64,000 bases of DNA from Desulfovibrio sp. (GTDB lineage: Bacteria; Desulfobacterota; Desulfovibrionia; Desulfovibrionales; Desulfovibrionaceae): contig JAITHT010000046.1 in the NCBI GenBank assembly GCA_031279825.1, forward strand, positions 1 to 64,000. The letters run 5' to 3'. Each line of letters starts with the position of its first letter. The stretch's first letter is position 1. The position numbers were made by a program, and so were the translations under genes. Below are positions 10,041-62,295 of the stretch, one piece after another. The notes beneath the pieces were generated by a model that had not been told where the DNA came from, did not search any database, and was given only the letters and a program-made list of their open reading frames with translations.

Positions 10041-10529
10041 TTACCAGAGCAGCGACAGGGCGCGCCGCTCCTCCTCCGCCAGAGCGGAATCGACATATTC
10101 TACACGCACGGAGATACGGGTGCCCCCGCGCGCGTTGAAGATCCCCTCGACGCTCATGCGCCTGGGGGCGAGCGCGGCGGTGAGATCGTCGGCAATGCGG
10201 TTGGTCAGGTTTTCCATGAACGTCCCCTGGTTACGGAAGGCTCCCATGTAAAGCTTGAAGGATTTCGACTCCACACAGCGAAGATCGGGAACGTAGCGAA
10301 CGCGGATGGTGCCGAAATCCGGCTGCCCGGTCATGGGACAGAGGCTGGTGAATTCCGGATATTCCAGGATGATGACGTAATGGCGTTCCGGATAGCGGTT
10401 GGGAAAGGATTCCAGTATGGAAACGTCGGGCGCGTCGAAACGGGGGCGAGAAGAGGAGCCGAGCAGGGTCAGACCGGACCCGTCTTCCACGTCCGCGCTG
10501 TGATCGGTCCGGGCGGCATGTCTATTCAT
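10041..10529 (-). CDS. queF: NADPH-dependent preQ0 reductase QueF
   Basis: The protein is 162 aa, single-domain (short) QueF type. The catalytic Cys is in EFTSLCPMTGQPDFGTI, the QueF motif is in ESKSFKLYMGAFRNQGTFME, and the Asp of the QPDFG segment is present. It reduces 7-cyano-7-deazaguanine to preQ1 for queuosine in tRNA wobble positions. ATG 10529 has GAGG six bases upstream; in-frame sequence further upstream is not family-like. It is divergent from the cobalamin-riboswitch transcript. No preQ1 riboswitch is visible upstream. Confidence 0.93.
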   Translation of the reverse strand: MNRHAARTDHSADVEDGSGLTLLGSSSRPRFDAPDVSILESFPNRYPERHYVIILEYPEFTSLCPMTGQPDFGTIRVRYVPDLRCVESKSFKLYMGAFRNQGTFMENLTNRIADDLTAALAPRRMSVEGIFNARGGTRISVRVEYVDSALAEEERRALSLLW

Positions 10530-10626
10530 GAATATCCTCACGGAGAAAAGGGGGTTGTTACAGTATTTTTCCGGGGCGTTATTCCAAAAAACACCATCGG
10601 CGACTGCCTCAAACGCAAAAGTTTTT

Positions 10627-10650: not shown

Positions 10651-10692
10651 TTGAAATAAACGAAACCGCAATGCGCTGTTTTATTCAATAAA

Positions 10693-10849
10693 GATAAAGC
10701 GCCCCGCCGGGCTTAATAGGGAATCTCGTGTAAAGCGAGAGCGGACCCGCCGCCGTGTACCGGGCATAACCTTCTTTTCCTGACGCGCCACTGGGAATCC
10801 CCCGGGAAGGCCGGAAAAGAAGCCGGACAGCCGGAAGACCTGCTTTATC
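10693..10849 (+). ncRNA. Cobalamin riboswitch
   Basis: The closing stem GATAAAGC (10693-10700) pairs perfectly with GCTTTATC (10842-10849). In order come GGGCTTAATAGGGAA, the central GGACCCGCCGCCGT region, CACTGGGAATCCCCCGGGAAGG, and the B12-box region AGCCGGACAGCCGGAAGACC. These match the order of the cobalamin-riboswitch core. A hairpin region and a terminator follow before cbiK, so adenosylcobalamin or a relative should turn transcription off. Confidence 0.85.
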
Positions 10850-10920
10850 ATTTCGTCTGTGAGGACGGACCGCGGCAACGGGGCTTTTGCCGTGTGGTCT
10901 TTTCGGGGATGAATCCGTTT

Positions 10921-10951
10921 CCTCCGCCCTTTTTGGGACGGAGGTTTTTTT
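10921..10951 (+). terminator. Riboswitch-controlled intrinsic terminator
   Basis: CCTCCG (10921-10926) and CGGAGG (10939-10944), with CC/GG extending the stem, are followed by seven T. It lies 72 bases after the riboswitch and 78 bases before the cbiK ATG, the position expected for a cobalamin-triggered terminator. Confidence 0.8.
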
Positions 10952-11028
10952 ATTCCTGATTCCCGACGTCGCCCCATAGGTCTGTTCCGGAGGACAACGC
11001 GTCCACATCCGGAAGCAGGAGGTTCTTC

Positions 11029-11988
11029 ATGATGTACTCTTCCTCCCTTTGCCGTCACCGCGCCGCCGCTTGCGGGCGCGGGACCGTGGAGATCGGCCCG
11101 GGGACGCCCGCGCGGGCGCCGTTCGTCCGCATCGCGGCGATCCTGACCTTCCTTTTGTCCGTATGTTGCGGCGCGGCCTTTGCGGAGCACCCCTCAGGCA
11201 AGGATGCCGTGCTTATCGTCGCCTTCGGCACCAGCGTGGAGAAGGCGAGAATTTCTTACACCAATGTGGAAGAGCGTGTCAAAAAGGCTTTCCCGGACAG
11301 CGTGCTGCGTTGGGCATGGAGCGCCCGCTCGCTCCTTAAAAAAGGCCCGAAGGACAACCCCGCTCTCTCCGTGCAAGAATCCCTGGCAAAGCTCGCCGCT
11401 GAAGGCGTGGAAAATGTCTCCGTGCTCTCGTTGCACGTCATTCCCGGTTCGGAATACGCCGATTTGCTCCAAAACGCCCGCGCCTTTGAAGGTCTGCCAA
11501 AGGGACTGCGCCATGTACGCGTCGCTCCGCCGCTCCTCTCCGATACGGAGAGTCTGCGCGCCGTGGCGCGCCTTCTTCTGGAAACGGTACCGGCGGAACG
11601 TGGAAAAGACGAGGGAGTGCTGTTTGTCGGGCACGGCACCCATCATCCTTCGGGAGTGTACTATCCCGCCTTGCAGTATTATTTGCAGGCCATGGACGGC
11701 AACGCCTTTGTCGGGACGGTCGAAGGAGATCTCGATGTTGCAAGCGTCTTGCGGAGTATGAAGGGCAAGGGCCTGCGCAAGGTGTGGATGGCTCCGCTCA
11801 TGACGGTGGCCGGAGATCATGCCGACAATGACCTGTTCGGCCCCGAGGCCGACAGTTGGAAGCAGCGTTTTACAGCGGACGGCATCCAGGTGAGGAGCAT
11901 AGCCAAAGGCCTCGGCGAGTATCCTGCTTTTGTCGCCAGATGGATTGCCGGCCTGGAAAAAACGGCCGGACGGGAGTCGTCCCGATAG
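11029..11988 (+). CDS. cbiK: Exported sirohydrochlorin cobaltochelatase CbiK
   Basis: The protein is 319 aa. Residues about 36-53 (IAAILTFLLSVCCGAAFAE) form a signal-peptide core after an unusually long basic N-region. The mature part starts like CbiK (AVLIVAFGTSVEKAR), with FVGHGTHHPSG holding likely metal-ligand histidines and a second half near APLMTVAGDHADNDLFG. CbiK inserts Co(II) into sirohydrochlorin at the start of anaerobic cobalamin synthesis. Exported CbiK forms are known from Desulfovibrio. ATG 11029 follows AGGAGG by five to six bases. It is the first gene under the cobalamin riboswitch. Confidence 0.92.
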   Translation: MMYSSSLCRHRAAACGRGTVEIGPGTPARAPFVRIAAILTFLLSVCCGAAFAEHPSGKDAVLIVAFGTSVEKARISYTNVEERVKKAFPDSVLRWAWSARSLLKKGPKDNPALSVQESLAKLAAEGVENVSVLSLHVIPGSEYADLLQNARAFEGLPKGLRHVRVAPPLLSDTESLRAVARLLLETVPAERGKDEGVLFVGHGTHHPSGVYYPALQYYLQAMDGNAFVGTVEGDLDVASVLRSMKGKGLRKVWMAPLMTVAGDHADNDLFGPEADSWKQRFTADGIQVRSIAKGLGEYPAFVARWIAGLEKTAGRESSR

Positions 11989-12004: not shown

Positions 12005-12075
12005 TATTCCTCGTGCTCTGGCAACCGGTGTTCGCGTTGTCGGTTGACGGAGCATTTTCAAAGTGAAAATGCTCC
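12005..12075 (-). repeat. Family R inverted-repeat element, partial copy (reverse)
   Basis: Read on the minus strand it begins GGAGCATTTTCACTTTGAAA, with complementary AATGCTCC closing the hairpin, then a degenerate CAACCG...GGTTG hairpin and CACGAGGA. This is the left half of the repeat seen whole at 20291-20420. It fills the gap between cbiK and the VUT gene. Confidence 0.6.
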
Positions 12076-12146
12076 GTCCGAAGCATGACTTGCTATGGAC
12101 CGATTTATTCTGTGACGCCGGCTATTTTCGTTCGGGAGGAGTGATT

Positions 12147-12626
12147 GTGAAATATCTTGCGCTGTATGTTCTTTCCATTATCACGGTTAATTACGCTTTT
12201 GAGCGTGTTCCGCCGCTTGTTCTGCCCGGTGGGGATATCTGGTCGCCGGTGGCGCTTGTCGTGGGTCTGGTTTTTGTCGTCCGCGATTACGCGCAACGCG
12301 AGATCGGCCATGCCGTTCTGCCGGCCATGCTGTTCGGCGGGGCCATCAGTTGGTTTTTGGCCTCGCCGAACGTGGCCCTTGCCAGCGTATGCGCCTTTTT
12401 TGCCGGCGAACTGCTGGACTGGGCCGTGTATACGTTTACCGGCCGTCCTTTTTCCCAGCGGGTTCTTCTGTCCAGCGCCATCGGCACGCCGGTGGACAGC
12501 GCCGTGTTTTTGTCCATGGCGGGGCTGTTCTCGTTATCCTCACTGATTATGATGACCATAAGCAAGATGGCGGGCGCGCTCGTTGTTTTTTTTATCGTGC
12601 GCCGCCGCGAAGGGGTTTCCGCCTGA
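12147..12626 (+). CDS. VUT family transporter (queuosine-precursor/vitamin-type)
   Basis: The protein is 159 aa, with about five or six membrane segments filling it. The conserved VVRDYAQREIG near residue 50 and FFAGELLDWAVYTFTGRP fit the VUT_1 (YhhQ-like) family, whose best-known members take up queuosine precursors. The GTG start at 12147 follows GGGAGGA; another GTG at 12141 is possible. Its place after cbiK under a cobalamin riboswitch suggests a corrin- or cobalt-related cargo, whereas the nearby queF and the family favour a deazaguanine. The substrate is unresolved. Confidence 0.75.
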   Translation: MKYLALYVLSIITVNYAFERVPPLVLPGGDIWSPVALVVGLVFVVRDYAQREIGHAVLPAMLFGGAISWFLASPNVALASVCAFFAGELLDWAVYTFTGRPFSQRVLLSSAIGTPVDSAVFLSMAGLFSLSSLIMMTISKMAGALVVFFIVRRREGVSA

Positions 12627-12757: not shown

Positions 12758-13732
12758 ATGCGGAAAGCGTGTATGCTCCTGTCGGCGTTGTGCCTGCTGT
12801 GCTGTATGGATCCGTCGGAAAGGGCGCTTGCGGCCGCGCCGGCGGCGGGTGGACAAGCCGTGGAAGTTATTGACGACAGCGGCAACCCCGTCCGCCTGGA
12901 TGCGCCGGCGCGGCGGATCGTCGTTCTTTACGCGGGCTTCGGCGATACCCTCGCCGCCATGGGGCTTACAGGGTATGTGGCGGGACGCACGGTTTCCGAC
13001 GATACCCTGCCTCCCACCGTGCCGGCGGTGGGCACGCATATGCGGCCCAACATGGAACTGGTGGCGGCCCTGCATCCTGATTTGGCCTTACTGCTTGAAG
13101 GGAGGGAGGAAGCGGGAGCGACCGCGCTGTCTCTGGGCAGGCTGGGTATTCCGGTGGCCCGTTTCCGCGTATCTTCTTTCGACGATTTGTTTTCCTGCAT
13201 CGGCCGCCTGGGAACGCTTACCGGGGAACAGACCAGGGCGGAAATCCTGTTGGCGGACATGCGGGAGCGCCTTGATGCCGTACGGCGCAAAACGGCCACG
13301 CTTGCACGCAGGCCGACGGTCTTTTTTGAAGTCCGCTACCCCAACCTGCTCGGGGCCGGCGGCAGGAGCATGCCTGCGGACATTATTCGCGCCGCGGGCG
13401 GGATCCACTGTCTGGACGGCGAAAACAGCCGCATGGTGCGTTTGAATGAGGAACGCCTGCTTCTCCTGAATCCCGATATATATCTGATTCAGGAAGGAGC
13501 CATGAACAAAAACCCGATTCCTTTAGAAGATCGGTCGCATTTTCGGGCTTTGTCCGCCGTGCGTAATGCATGGAGTTTTACGGTGCCGGAGTCGCGTTTT
13601 TCCCGTCCCGGTCCGCAAAGCGTTTCCGCAGTGGAAGAACTGGCGGACATCATCCTGCGCCGGTATGCCGGAAAGCGGCGGATGCCCGAGTCGGAACAGC
13701 CGGATGAGGGATGGGCATCATGCGTGGAATAA
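12758..13732 (+). CDS. Periplasmic substrate-binding protein (BtuF/FepB-type)
   Basis: The protein is 324 aa with a signal peptide (MRKACMLLSALCLLCC...ALAAAPA). The mature part carries the two-lobe helical-backbone pattern of cobalamin/siderophore binding proteins: VEVIDDSGNPVRLDAPARRIVVLYAGFGD, AVGTHMRPNMELVAALHPDL, and the second lobe FFEVRYPNLLGAGG. ATG 12758 follows GGGGAAAG. No permease or ATPase is adjacent, so it must work with one encoded elsewhere. Position between cbiK and cbiL points to cobalamin, a cobinamide or cobalt-complex ligand. Confidence 0.8.
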   Translation: MRKACMLLSALCLLCCMDPSERALAAAPAAGGQAVEVIDDSGNPVRLDAPARRIVVLYAGFGDTLAAMGLTGYVAGRTVSDDTLPPTVPAVGTHMRPNMELVAALHPDLALLLEGREEAGATALSLGRLGIPVARFRVSSFDDLFSCIGRLGTLTGEQTRAEILLADMRERLDAVRRKTATLARRPTVFFEVRYPNLLGAGGRSMPADIIRAAGGIHCLDGENSRMVRLNEERLLLLNPDIYLIQEGAMNKNPIPLEDRSHFRALSAVRNAWSFTVPESRFSRPGPQSVSAVEELADIILRRYAGKRRMPESEQPDEGWASCVE

Positions 13733-13745
13733 AGGGTGTCAATGC

Positions 13746-14567
13746 ATGAGTGTGAAGACTTCCAAAACGCCGGGTAACGAAGCTCTGTCCTGGCCGCCGC
13801 GCGCGCCTCTTGCAAACGGCGGCGACGGCCGGGAACAAGGCAGGAACTCCGCATCGGGCGTGCTTTACGGTATCGGCGTTGGTCCGGGGTCGCCGGACTT
13901 GCTCACCTTGCGGGCGGTGGCGGCGCTTCGCTCTGCGCGGGTCGTTCTGGCCGCGGCCTCCCCCGGCAATGAGTATTCCCTTGCCTTGTCCATCGCCGCC
14001 CCCCATCTGCCTGAAGATGCGGAGATACTGCGTCTGAACTTTCCCATGACCCGCGATGCGCGGATTCTGGAGCAAGCCTGGTCCGACAACGCCCGTCAAG
14101 TGCTTGAGGTTCTCCATTCAGGGCGTGACGCCGCGTTCCTCACGCTCGGCGATCCCTTGATTTACAGCACCTTCGGCTATCTTCTGCATACGCTCCAAAC
14201 CCTTGAACCCGGAGTGACCGCGCGCGTCATTCCCGGCATCACCTCATACCAGGAGGCGGCCGCCAGGAGCCGGACGGTGCTCTGTCAGGGAGGGGAAAAT
14301 CTTCTGATCGTTTCGGGCATCAATGATGCCGACCGTCTCGCGCAGGCCATGCGCCTTGCCGACAGTGCGGTGATTTTGAAGGCCTACCGTAATTTCAGCA
14401 CGATTTCGGAGGTTTTGCGGGCAAACGGCAGGTCCGGACACAGCCTTTTCGCCTCCCGGCTCGGTCTGGATAATGAAATACTTCTGCGCGGGCTTGAAAA
14501 TGTTCCGGAAAACCCGCATTATCTTTCTCTCATTCTGGCTCCGCCGGACAGATCCGGCAGCGAGTGA
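13746..14567 (+). CDS. cbiL: Precorrin-2/cobalt-factor II C20-methyltransferase
   Basis: The protein is 273 aa. After about 35 variable residues it starts LYGIGVGPGSPDLLTLRAVAAL, the glycine-rich SAM-binding motif of the tetrapyrrole methylases. FLTLGDPLIYSTFGYLLHTL and VIPGITSYQEAAAR are characteristic of the C20 enzyme. It adds the C20 methyl to the corrin ring precursor. ATG 13746 begins 13 bases after the previous stop. With cbiK (cobalt first) the cobalt-factor II version of the reaction is most likely. Confidence 0.9.
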   Translation: MSVKTSKTPGNEALSWPPRAPLANGGDGREQGRNSASGVLYGIGVGPGSPDLLTLRAVAALRSARVVLAAASPGNEYSLALSIAAPHLPEDAEILRLNFPMTRDARILEQAWSDNARQVLEVLHSGRDAAFLTLGDPLIYSTFGYLLHTLQTLEPGVTARVIPGITSYQEAAARSRTVLCQGGENLLIVSGINDADRLAQAMRLADSAVILKAYRNFSTISEVLRANGRSGHSLFASRLGLDNEILLRGLENVPENPHYLSLILAPPDRSGSE

Positions 14568-20267: not shown

Positions 20268-20290
20268 AGAATATCGCCCGATTGCGTCGT

Positions 20291-20420
20291 TAGAGCATTT
20301 TCACTTTGAAAATGCTCTGGCAACCGGCAGCGTAAGCGCCGGACCTCGTGCACGAGGAGTAGGCGAAACGTATTTTCGCCGAGGGCGACGAGTGCAACGT
20401 TTCAAAGGTAATCTGCTCTA
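20291..20420 (+). repeat. Family R inverted-repeat element, full copy
   Basis: The 130 bp element begins TAGAGCATTTTCACTTTGAA and ends in the inverted counterpart TTTCAAAGGTAATCTGCTCTA. Inside are a perfect left-end hairpin (AGAGCATTTTC/GAAAATGCTCT), CCGGC-AGCGTAAGC-GCCGG, CTCGTGCACGAG and GGCGAAAACGTATTTTCGCC-like stems. Nearly the same sequence appears at 61914-62043 and 62176-62295. It has no coding capacity. Confidence 0.75.
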
Positions 20421-20429
20421 CATCTAAGA

Positions 20430-21676: not shown

Positions 21677-22247
21677 GGTCGCTTTCTCCTGTAGCTTGTT
21701 TATCGATATATTTGAACACGCGGCGTGAGGCTCGTGTTTCGCGCGGGCCATACCGCTGTCGCGTAAAGCGCCTGCATGGCGTCGTTATCGGTCAGAAGCT
21801 GATACTGCATATTTATGTCCGGGTAAACCCTTCCTGCTCCCTGCTTTGCCTTACTTTTGCGCCATCCGTCCCGATGCCCCGCGCGGATACTCGAATGTTC
21901 CGCCGGCATCGGTCGTCGCCGGGGCGGCCTTTACGCCATTGCCGCTCCTTTTGAAAATCGACTTTTTTTTACTTTTGGGCTATTCTTTAAAAAGCGTCTG
22001 TAAACCCATAGTTGCGCAATACGCCCGGCGACCCCTGACCGTCGCGTCGCCGGAATATCTGCAGCAGAGTAACTGTGAAACGCTGCACCCGTCGTTGACG
22101 GCGAAAACAATGTTTGCCCGCTCTTCGTGCGCGCACGTCAGCGCGTATACTGTCGGTTGACAGAGCATTTTCGCAGTGAAACCGCTCCGGTTTCGGCGTT
22201 TCTGACGCGCGAGGGGATGCATATACGTACTGAAAAGGAGTTGCGCC
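21677..22247. other. Intergenic region between icd and chaN
   Basis: Divergent promoter region for icd (left) and the ChaN gene (right). No gene is supported. It contains the family R repeat at 22062-22188 and an AT-rich segment near 21958-21995 (ACTTTTTTTTACTTTTGGGC). Clear -35/-10 pairs could not be assigned. Confidence 0.4.
22062..22188 (-). repeat. Family R inverted-repeat element, diverged full copy (reverse)
   Basis: On the plus strand it runs AGCAGAGTAACTGTGAAACG ... GGCGAAAACAATGTTTGCC ... CGGTTGACAGAGCATTTTCG ... CCGCTCC. This is the reverse complement of the element at 20291-20420 with many changes. The stems remain recognisable. It lies 60 bases before the chaN start. Confidence 0.5.
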
Positions 22248-25349: not shown

Positions 25350-25399
25350 GCCGTAAGGAGACAAGCGGATCAGAGTAAAAAACGCCGCATCGTTATCGT

Positions 25400-25458
25400 T
25401 AGAGCATTTTCACTTTGAAAATGCTCTGGCAACCGAACTAGAAGTGAAAATGCTCTTA
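25400..25458 (+). repeat. Family R inverted-repeat element, internally deleted copy
   Basis: TAGAGCATTTTCACTTTGAA with its hairpin partner and GGCAACCG is joined directly to a right-end-like TAGAAGTGAAAATGCTCTTA. The middle is missing. It separates the convergent HlyD and TauE genes and could act as a terminator hairpin. Confidence 0.6.
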
Positions 25459-34753: not shown

Positions 34754-34909
34754 CTAGGGCGGCGTGTTAACGCTATGCCTTTTTGCCCTCCGGCTGCGTC
34801 AGATTGTGTCTGCCATCCCGGTCAAATAGCGTTTAAGAGTATATTCCCTCATGGCAGAGGCATCTTCCTTGCCGGAGAACAAAAATTTTATAACGTTAAC
34901 ACGCCCTAA
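34754..34909. repeat. Inverted-repeat-bounded element (MITE-like)
   Basis: CTAGGGCGGCGTGTTAACG (about 34754-34772) and CGTTAACACGCCCTA (34893-34907) are inverted copies with three extra bases on one side. The 120 bases between have no gene and run into the family R fragment at 34907. The GGGCGTGTTAAC ends resemble those of IS5-type elements, a comparison from memory that needs checking. Confidence 0.45.
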
Positions 34910-34935
34910 AGCATTTTCAAAGCGAAAACACTCTA
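34907..34935 (+). repeat. Family R left-end fragment
   Basis: TAAAGCATTTTCAAAGCGAA followed by AACACTCTA retains the imperfect terminal hairpin only. It directly follows the inverted-repeat element at 34754-34909. Confidence 0.4.
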
Positions 34936-35030
34936 ACTTTCGTTGCGGTGTAGAAATGAGCAAAAAATTTTGCCGGATGGGCTTTATCAGGCTTGAGTAT
35001 GTATGCGGCCGCAGTAGCGGTACGACGGCC

Positions 35031-61889: not shown

Positions 61890-61913
61890 GCGTTATGGTG
61901 ATGCTATCGTTGA

Positions 61914-62043
61914 CAGAGTGCGTTCACTTTGAAAATGCTCTGGCAACCGGCAACGTAAGCGTCGGCTCTCGTGCACGAGGAGTAGGCGAAACGTGTTTTC
62001 GCCGAGGGCGACGAGCGCAACGTTTCAAAGTGAATCTGCTCTA
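61914..62043 (+). repeat. Family R inverted-repeat element, full copy
   Basis: 130 bp, from CAGAGTGCGTTCACTTTGAA through CTCGTGCACGAG and GGCGAAAACGTGTTTTCGCC-like stems to TTTCAAAGTGAATCTGCTCTA. Close to the copy at 20291-20420. It lies between the rplQ stop and the operon terminator, and its last base is the first base of the terminator stem. Confidence 0.75.
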
Positions 62044-62175: not shown

Positions 62176-62295
62176 TAGCTGGGGCATTTTCACTTTGAAA
62201 ATGCCCGTCAACCGGCAGCGTAAGCGCCGGTTGCGTGCACGAGGAGTGGGCGAAACGAAACGGCGAGGGCAAGGTTGCAAAGTTGATCTGCTCTA
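62176..62295 (+). repeat. Family R inverted-repeat element, copy abutting an aminotransferase
   Basis: TAGCTGGGGCATTTTCACTT with its hairpin partner, CAACCGGC-AGCGTAAGC-GCCGGTTG and GTGCACGAGGAGTGGGCGAA, ending GCAAAGTTGATCTGCTCTA. The right end is 17 bases before the start codon at 62313, so the element is the 5' region of that gene's mRNA or its promoter. Confidence 0.7.

Follow-up and report, generated by a model that had tools for sequence, protein, structure and literature searches.

The window, a stretch of 64,000 nucleotides of Desulfovibrio DNA, carries a gene for a compact membrane protein of the VUT family, which is located among genes for cobalamin synthesis and uptake and downstream of a cobalamin riboswitch. 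The following features were identified around this gene:

10041..10532, up to 10688, minus strand: queF, preQ0 to preQ1 reductase (PF14489 100 bits, TIGR03139 159 bits, both above the cut-off)
10680..10861, plus strand: cobalamin riboswitch aptamer, RF00174 (90.7 bits, E 3.8e-21, full-length)
10920..10951, plus strand: terminator-like hairpin with a T7 run (fold of 10862-10960: -44.9 kcal/mol, z -3.4)
11029..11988, plus strand: cbiK, cobaltochelatase of the periplasmic type (PF06180 186 bits; signal-peptide-like N-terminus ...RIAAILTFLLSVCCGAAFAE)
12005..12083, minus strand: half copy of a dispersed element of ~140 nt with a perfect hairpin at its end, in the gap between cbiK and the VUT gene
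12147..12626, plus strand: compact VUT-family membrane protein, 159 aa, five predicted helices (PF02592, ortholog context, model pLDDT 88.5)
12758..13732, plus strand: BtuF-like periplasmic substrate-binding protein, Peripla_BP_2 (PF01497 74.6 bits)
13746..14567, plus strand: cbiL, precorrin-2 C20-methyltransferase (TIGR01467 216 bits, above the cut-off)

Profile matches confirmed the gene order that had been read in the first-pass annotation, coordinates included, with the VUT gene placed between cbiK and the genes encoding the BtuF-like protein and CbiL. The divergent queF upstream of the riboswitch was likewise confirmed by a TIGR03139 score above the cut-off on the minus strand; translation probably begins at the ATG near 10532, and the open reading frame reaches an upstream TTG at 10688. 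The hairpin at 10920-10951 probably represents the expression platform of the cobalamin riboswitch. With its signal-peptide-like start the cbiK product resembles the periplasmic CbiK known from Desulfovibrio vulgaris. The BtuF-like protein shares about 50% identity with the protein or domain beside a FecCD-ABC fusion in two related loci (L153 and L156; L, G and C denote loci, genomes and contigs). The VUT gene has a GTG start preceded by GGAGG and is separated from cbiK by 158 nt and from the BtuF-like gene by 131 nt.

A compact form of the VUT protein

The VUT protein matched PF02592 (Vut_1) with 35.8 bits, above the curated gathering cut-off of 27.2 bits, and covers only profile positions 60-140 of 152, which is about half of the profile. 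It scored 26.7 bits with TIGR00697, the NCBIfam equivalog for queuosine precursor transporters, whose cut-off is 50.95 bits. All 39 aligned homologs matched PF02592 at E <= 0.001, and a TIGR00697 hit was likewise obtained for 39 of 39 (best E 1.6e-9). Because it stays below the cut-off of the NCBI equivalog the protein should not be filed there, though it would work like YhhQ. Five long helices are present in the AlphaFold2 model (pLDDT 88.5, pTM 0.83), whereas QPTR/YhhQ proteins are expected to have six transmembrane helices.

Profile-profile alignment of compact VUT proteins with canonical YhhQ homologs of the same bacterial family gave a probability of 95% over 59 columns, and a D and a DSxxF motif are common to both profiles. 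In the tree, very long branches lie between compact and canonical VUT proteins, and the window protein was placed within a compact Desulfovibrio clade. When the model was compared with solved structures using Foldseek, only insignificant matches were obtained (ECF S-component 4dve, E 0.66). A profile search of solved sequences with the VUT protein gave no significant match, and no experimental test of any member of the compact subfamily was found in the literature. The window protein is a member of a compact, five-helix, deeply divergent VUT subfamily.

Genomic neighbours and distribution of compact VUT genes

The closest orthologs of the window protein (55-72% identity) directly adjoin queF in Desulfovibrionaceae and relatives. 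VUT and queF are often divergent with only an intergenic region between them (L003/L161, L159, L160, L173, L174, L175), or they are arranged head-to-tail in tandem (L001, L168). In the D. desulfuricans group tgt adjoins the VUT ortholog (L178-L180, L014), and in Rhodospirillales the adjoining gene is queG (L004, L005, L007, L012, L015), and queF, tgt and queA are found nearby. The orthologs therefore display the genomic association with queuosine genes (queF, tgt, queG and queA) that is used to recognize QPTR/YhhQ transporters. In at least 23 genomes, from other genera of the same bacterial family, this position next to queF is taken by a canonical YhhQ homolog.

An alternative reading is that the compact VUT carries another purine or base and not a queuosine precursor. 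According to the literature, COG1738 might also comprise carriers of other purines (PMC5372724), guaA adjoins VUT in L168, and for some family members (L163, L164, Roseobacteraceae and Rickettsiella) a queuosine gene was absent among the identified neighbours. We nevertheless regard this reading as quite improbable, given the repeated adjacency of the orthologs to queF, tgt and queG, the mutual exclusion with YhhQ and the preQ0-salvage genotype of the host, which are described below.

Two further arrangements were observed among the VUT loci. A third, intermediate VUT type of about 165-193 aa is encoded in L184 and L185 (G039 of genus g39, and G549); it is distant from both the compact and the canonical forms and adjoins queF in L184. 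In Roseobacteraceae and Paracoccaceae (L020, L022, L023, L025), the compact VUT gene is preceded by a gene whose large product gave a weak, MASE1-like match and followed by three conserved ORFs of about 350, 520 and 590 aa, the L020 copies of which gave no Pfam match.

The distribution of the VUT forms was surveyed in 149 genomes of the bacterial family. Compact and canonical forms were never found together, as the canonical form was detected in none of the 26 genomes bearing the compact one, compared with 76 of the 123 genomes lacking it (Fisher p 5.5e-10, relatedness ignored). In genera g26 and g34 some sister species carry the compact and others the canonical form. The compact VUT was not enriched among queC-less genomes (28 with, 30 without, p 0.88); the informative comparison is that of the transporter type among queF-positive, queC-negative genomes, in which preQ0 has to be supplied externally if queC is really missing. 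These 37 genomes comprised 13 with the compact form, 19 with the canonical form and four with the intermediate form, the latter located next to queF. The genome of the window (G000) contains queF and tgt, and neither queC nor a queD-type PTPS nor QueG was found in its assembly, which is 83% complete, so that queC and queD may have been missed. With queF and tgt and without detectable queC and queD, the host appears to salvage preQ0. A grouping of the window protein with preQ0/preQ1 transporters, which the first-pass annotation had named as part of what would speak against its own reading, is supported by context and distribution. In the tree the protein lies very distant from YhhQ.

The VUT gene within the cobalamin cluster

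For Desulfovibrio, a B12-riboswitch operon cbiK-btuCDF-cbiL has been published as part of the regulon (PMC545781), and the layouts found in two relatives agree with it. In Desulfovibrio cuneatus (L156) the riboswitch is followed by cbiK, a FecCD-ABC fusion (btuCD), btuF and cbiL, and in G141 (L153) by cbiK and then by one fusion of all three transporter parts. The latter is a single ORF of 977 aa (L153:370-3303) comprising FecCD permease, ABC ATPase and periplasmic binding protein domains; with the binding domain C-terminal on a cytoplasmic ATPase it is topologically odd, and an assembly or frame artefact is possible. In the window, the btuCD slot between cbiK and btuF is taken by the VUT gene. 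A different arrangement was found in G107 and G056, which encode the closest cbiK (57-59%): here cbiK is located 3' of a riboswitch-nrdD-nrdG operon, and btuF-cbiL and btuCD form separate units. The variation between these genomes and L156/L153 indicates that the cobalamin cluster is fluid in this genus. The order riboswitch-nrdD-nrdG-cbiK in G107 and G056 (L149, L151) constitutes one apparent operon, which joins a B12-independent ribonucleotide reductase with the cobaltochelatase.

The exact btuCD position between cbiK and btuF (as in L156 and L153), together with a score below the NCBI cut-off for queuosine precursor transporters, could be taken to mean that the VUT protein replaces BtuCD and imports corrinoids or cobalt, either by itself or together with the BtuF-like protein. 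If this were true, a VUT member with a corrin substrate would have been captured as the corrinoid permease of the cobalamin operon. We consider this highly improbable. A FecCD or ABC ATPase domain, as in BtuCD-type corrinoid permeases, is absent from the VUT protein, for which PF02592 was the only match above the cut-off. The genome of the window has a FecCD-ABC fusion on contig C16 with no related binding-protein gene nearby, in line with its being the partner of this BtuF, and G107 and G056 also have btuCD apart from btuF-cbiL. Moreover, orthologs with as much as 72% identity have queF as a neighbour, and no ortholog was encountered within a cobalamin cluster. The possibility, raised in the first-pass annotation, that the VUT family has a member connected with corrins or cobalt was therefore not supported: orthologs at 55-72% identity adjoin queF, tgt or queG, the host has queF and tgt with neither queC nor queD detected, and btuCD is kept on C16. 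The related idea that VUT stands in for a lost BtuCD was rejected, as the same genome carries btuCD at another site.

With respect to control by B12, the RF00174 aptamer lies upstream of the VUT gene on the same strand, which upholds this part of the description of VUT as lying inside the riboswitch transcript; co-transcription itself is what we infer from this order. No second riboswitch was detected, the stretch from cbiK to VUT contained no promoter-like site on the plus strand, and the hairpin in this gap lacks a T run. Repression of VUT by B12 through read-through is possible on these sequence features and, if it occurs, is best read as a by-product.

Alternatively, VUT might have been recruited to the B12 regulon, so that preQ0 uptake would be deliberately repressed together with cbiK, btuF and cbiL. 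Apart from the position of VUT 3' of the riboswitch and cbiK with no promoter-like site in between, this is favoured by the presence of a VUT gene near a B12 riboswitch in two relatives. However, in L168 VUT precedes the riboswitch, whose target is metE, 3' of queF, and in L187 VUT is oriented divergently from the riboswitch, which controls nrdD, so that neither VUT gene is part of the riboswitch transcript. Among roughly 40 other VUT loci scanned, some of them short, none had VUT 3' of a co-oriented B12 riboswitch. In addition, the 158- and 131-nt gaps isolate VUT in the window, whereas cbiK, btuCD and btuF abut or overlap in L156. QueG, the B12-dependent enzyme of queuosine synthesis, was found in 0 of 15 genomes of the genus, which makes functional co-control by cobalamin unlikely. 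The co-control of queuosine and cobalamin supply proposed in the first-pass annotation is thus retained as possible read-through, and as a functional link it is opposed by an arrangement seen in no other scanned locus and by the missing QueG. That B12 control would be sensible because QueG needs cobalamin was also considered and rejected for this genus, as QueG was not found in it.

The half element in the gap between cbiK and VUT matches the full copy at 20285 over 70 nt. Seven copies of the element core are present in the window:

12005-12083, 20285-20425, 22063-22196, 25396-25435, 34903-34942, 61908-62043 and 62176-62295

The hairpin pattern of the element was observed four times with 0 expected, and similar inverted GAGCATTTTCACTTTGAAA-type sequences are located at both ends, so that the element looks like a small non-autonomous transposon (MITE). 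The half copy between cbiK and VUT may mark a rearrangement, and a similar fragment is located upstream of the VUT gene in L160. Partial copies were also seen in related genomes (L160, L164, L201), and one such hairpin lies just past btuCD on contig C16 (L198).

Proposed function and comparison with known transporters

Building on family membership, the context of the orthologs, the genotype of the host and the btuCD slot in relatives, we infer that the compact VUT is a QPTR-like importer of the inner membrane for a 7-deazaguanine, most likely preQ0. Imported preQ0 would be reduced to preQ1 by the neighbouring QueF, and preQ1 would then be inserted into tRNA by TGT. A lineage-specific rearrangement would have interleaved the queF-VUT pair with the cobalamin cluster and thereby put VUT between cbiK and btuF. 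Any B12 response would arise from read-through of the riboswitch-controlled cbiK message as a side effect, with no sign of corrin or cobalt carriage. We assign a probability of roughly 85% to this reading, namely a preQ0/preQ1 importer set in a B12 cluster by rearrangement with an incidental B12 response.

From its distribution in Desulfovibrionaceae, the compact subfamily seems to be functionally equivalent to YhhQ, and it could fill a missing-transporter gap in many sulfate reducers and some alphaproteobacteria. As the NCBI queuosine transporter model misses the window protein, family cut-offs alone would name such proteins only 'VUT family', and an operon position beside cbiK, btuF and cbiL can, taken alone, mislead functional assignment.

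Compared with the published cbiK-btuCDF-cbiL operon of Desulfovibrio (PMC545781), the window cluster has the same order of riboswitch, cbiK, btuF and cbiL, but it lacks btuCD and has VUT in its place. ECF-type QueT/QrtT proteins are predicted importers of queuosine precursors (PMC11130926) and share this predicted role with the compact VUT, which belongs to a different family; the Foldseek match to 4dve was insignificant. Relative to YhhQ/QPTR (COG1738, PF02592, TIGR00697), the compact VUT is shorter (about 159 aa with five predicted helices, compared with about 220 aa and six), covers half of the Pfam profile, scores below the NCBI equivalog cut-off and, in the set searched, never coexists in one genome with the canonical form. 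It nevertheless shares with YhhQ/QPTR the Pfam family, the segment with D and DSxxF, the slot beside queF and the preQ0-salvage genotype.
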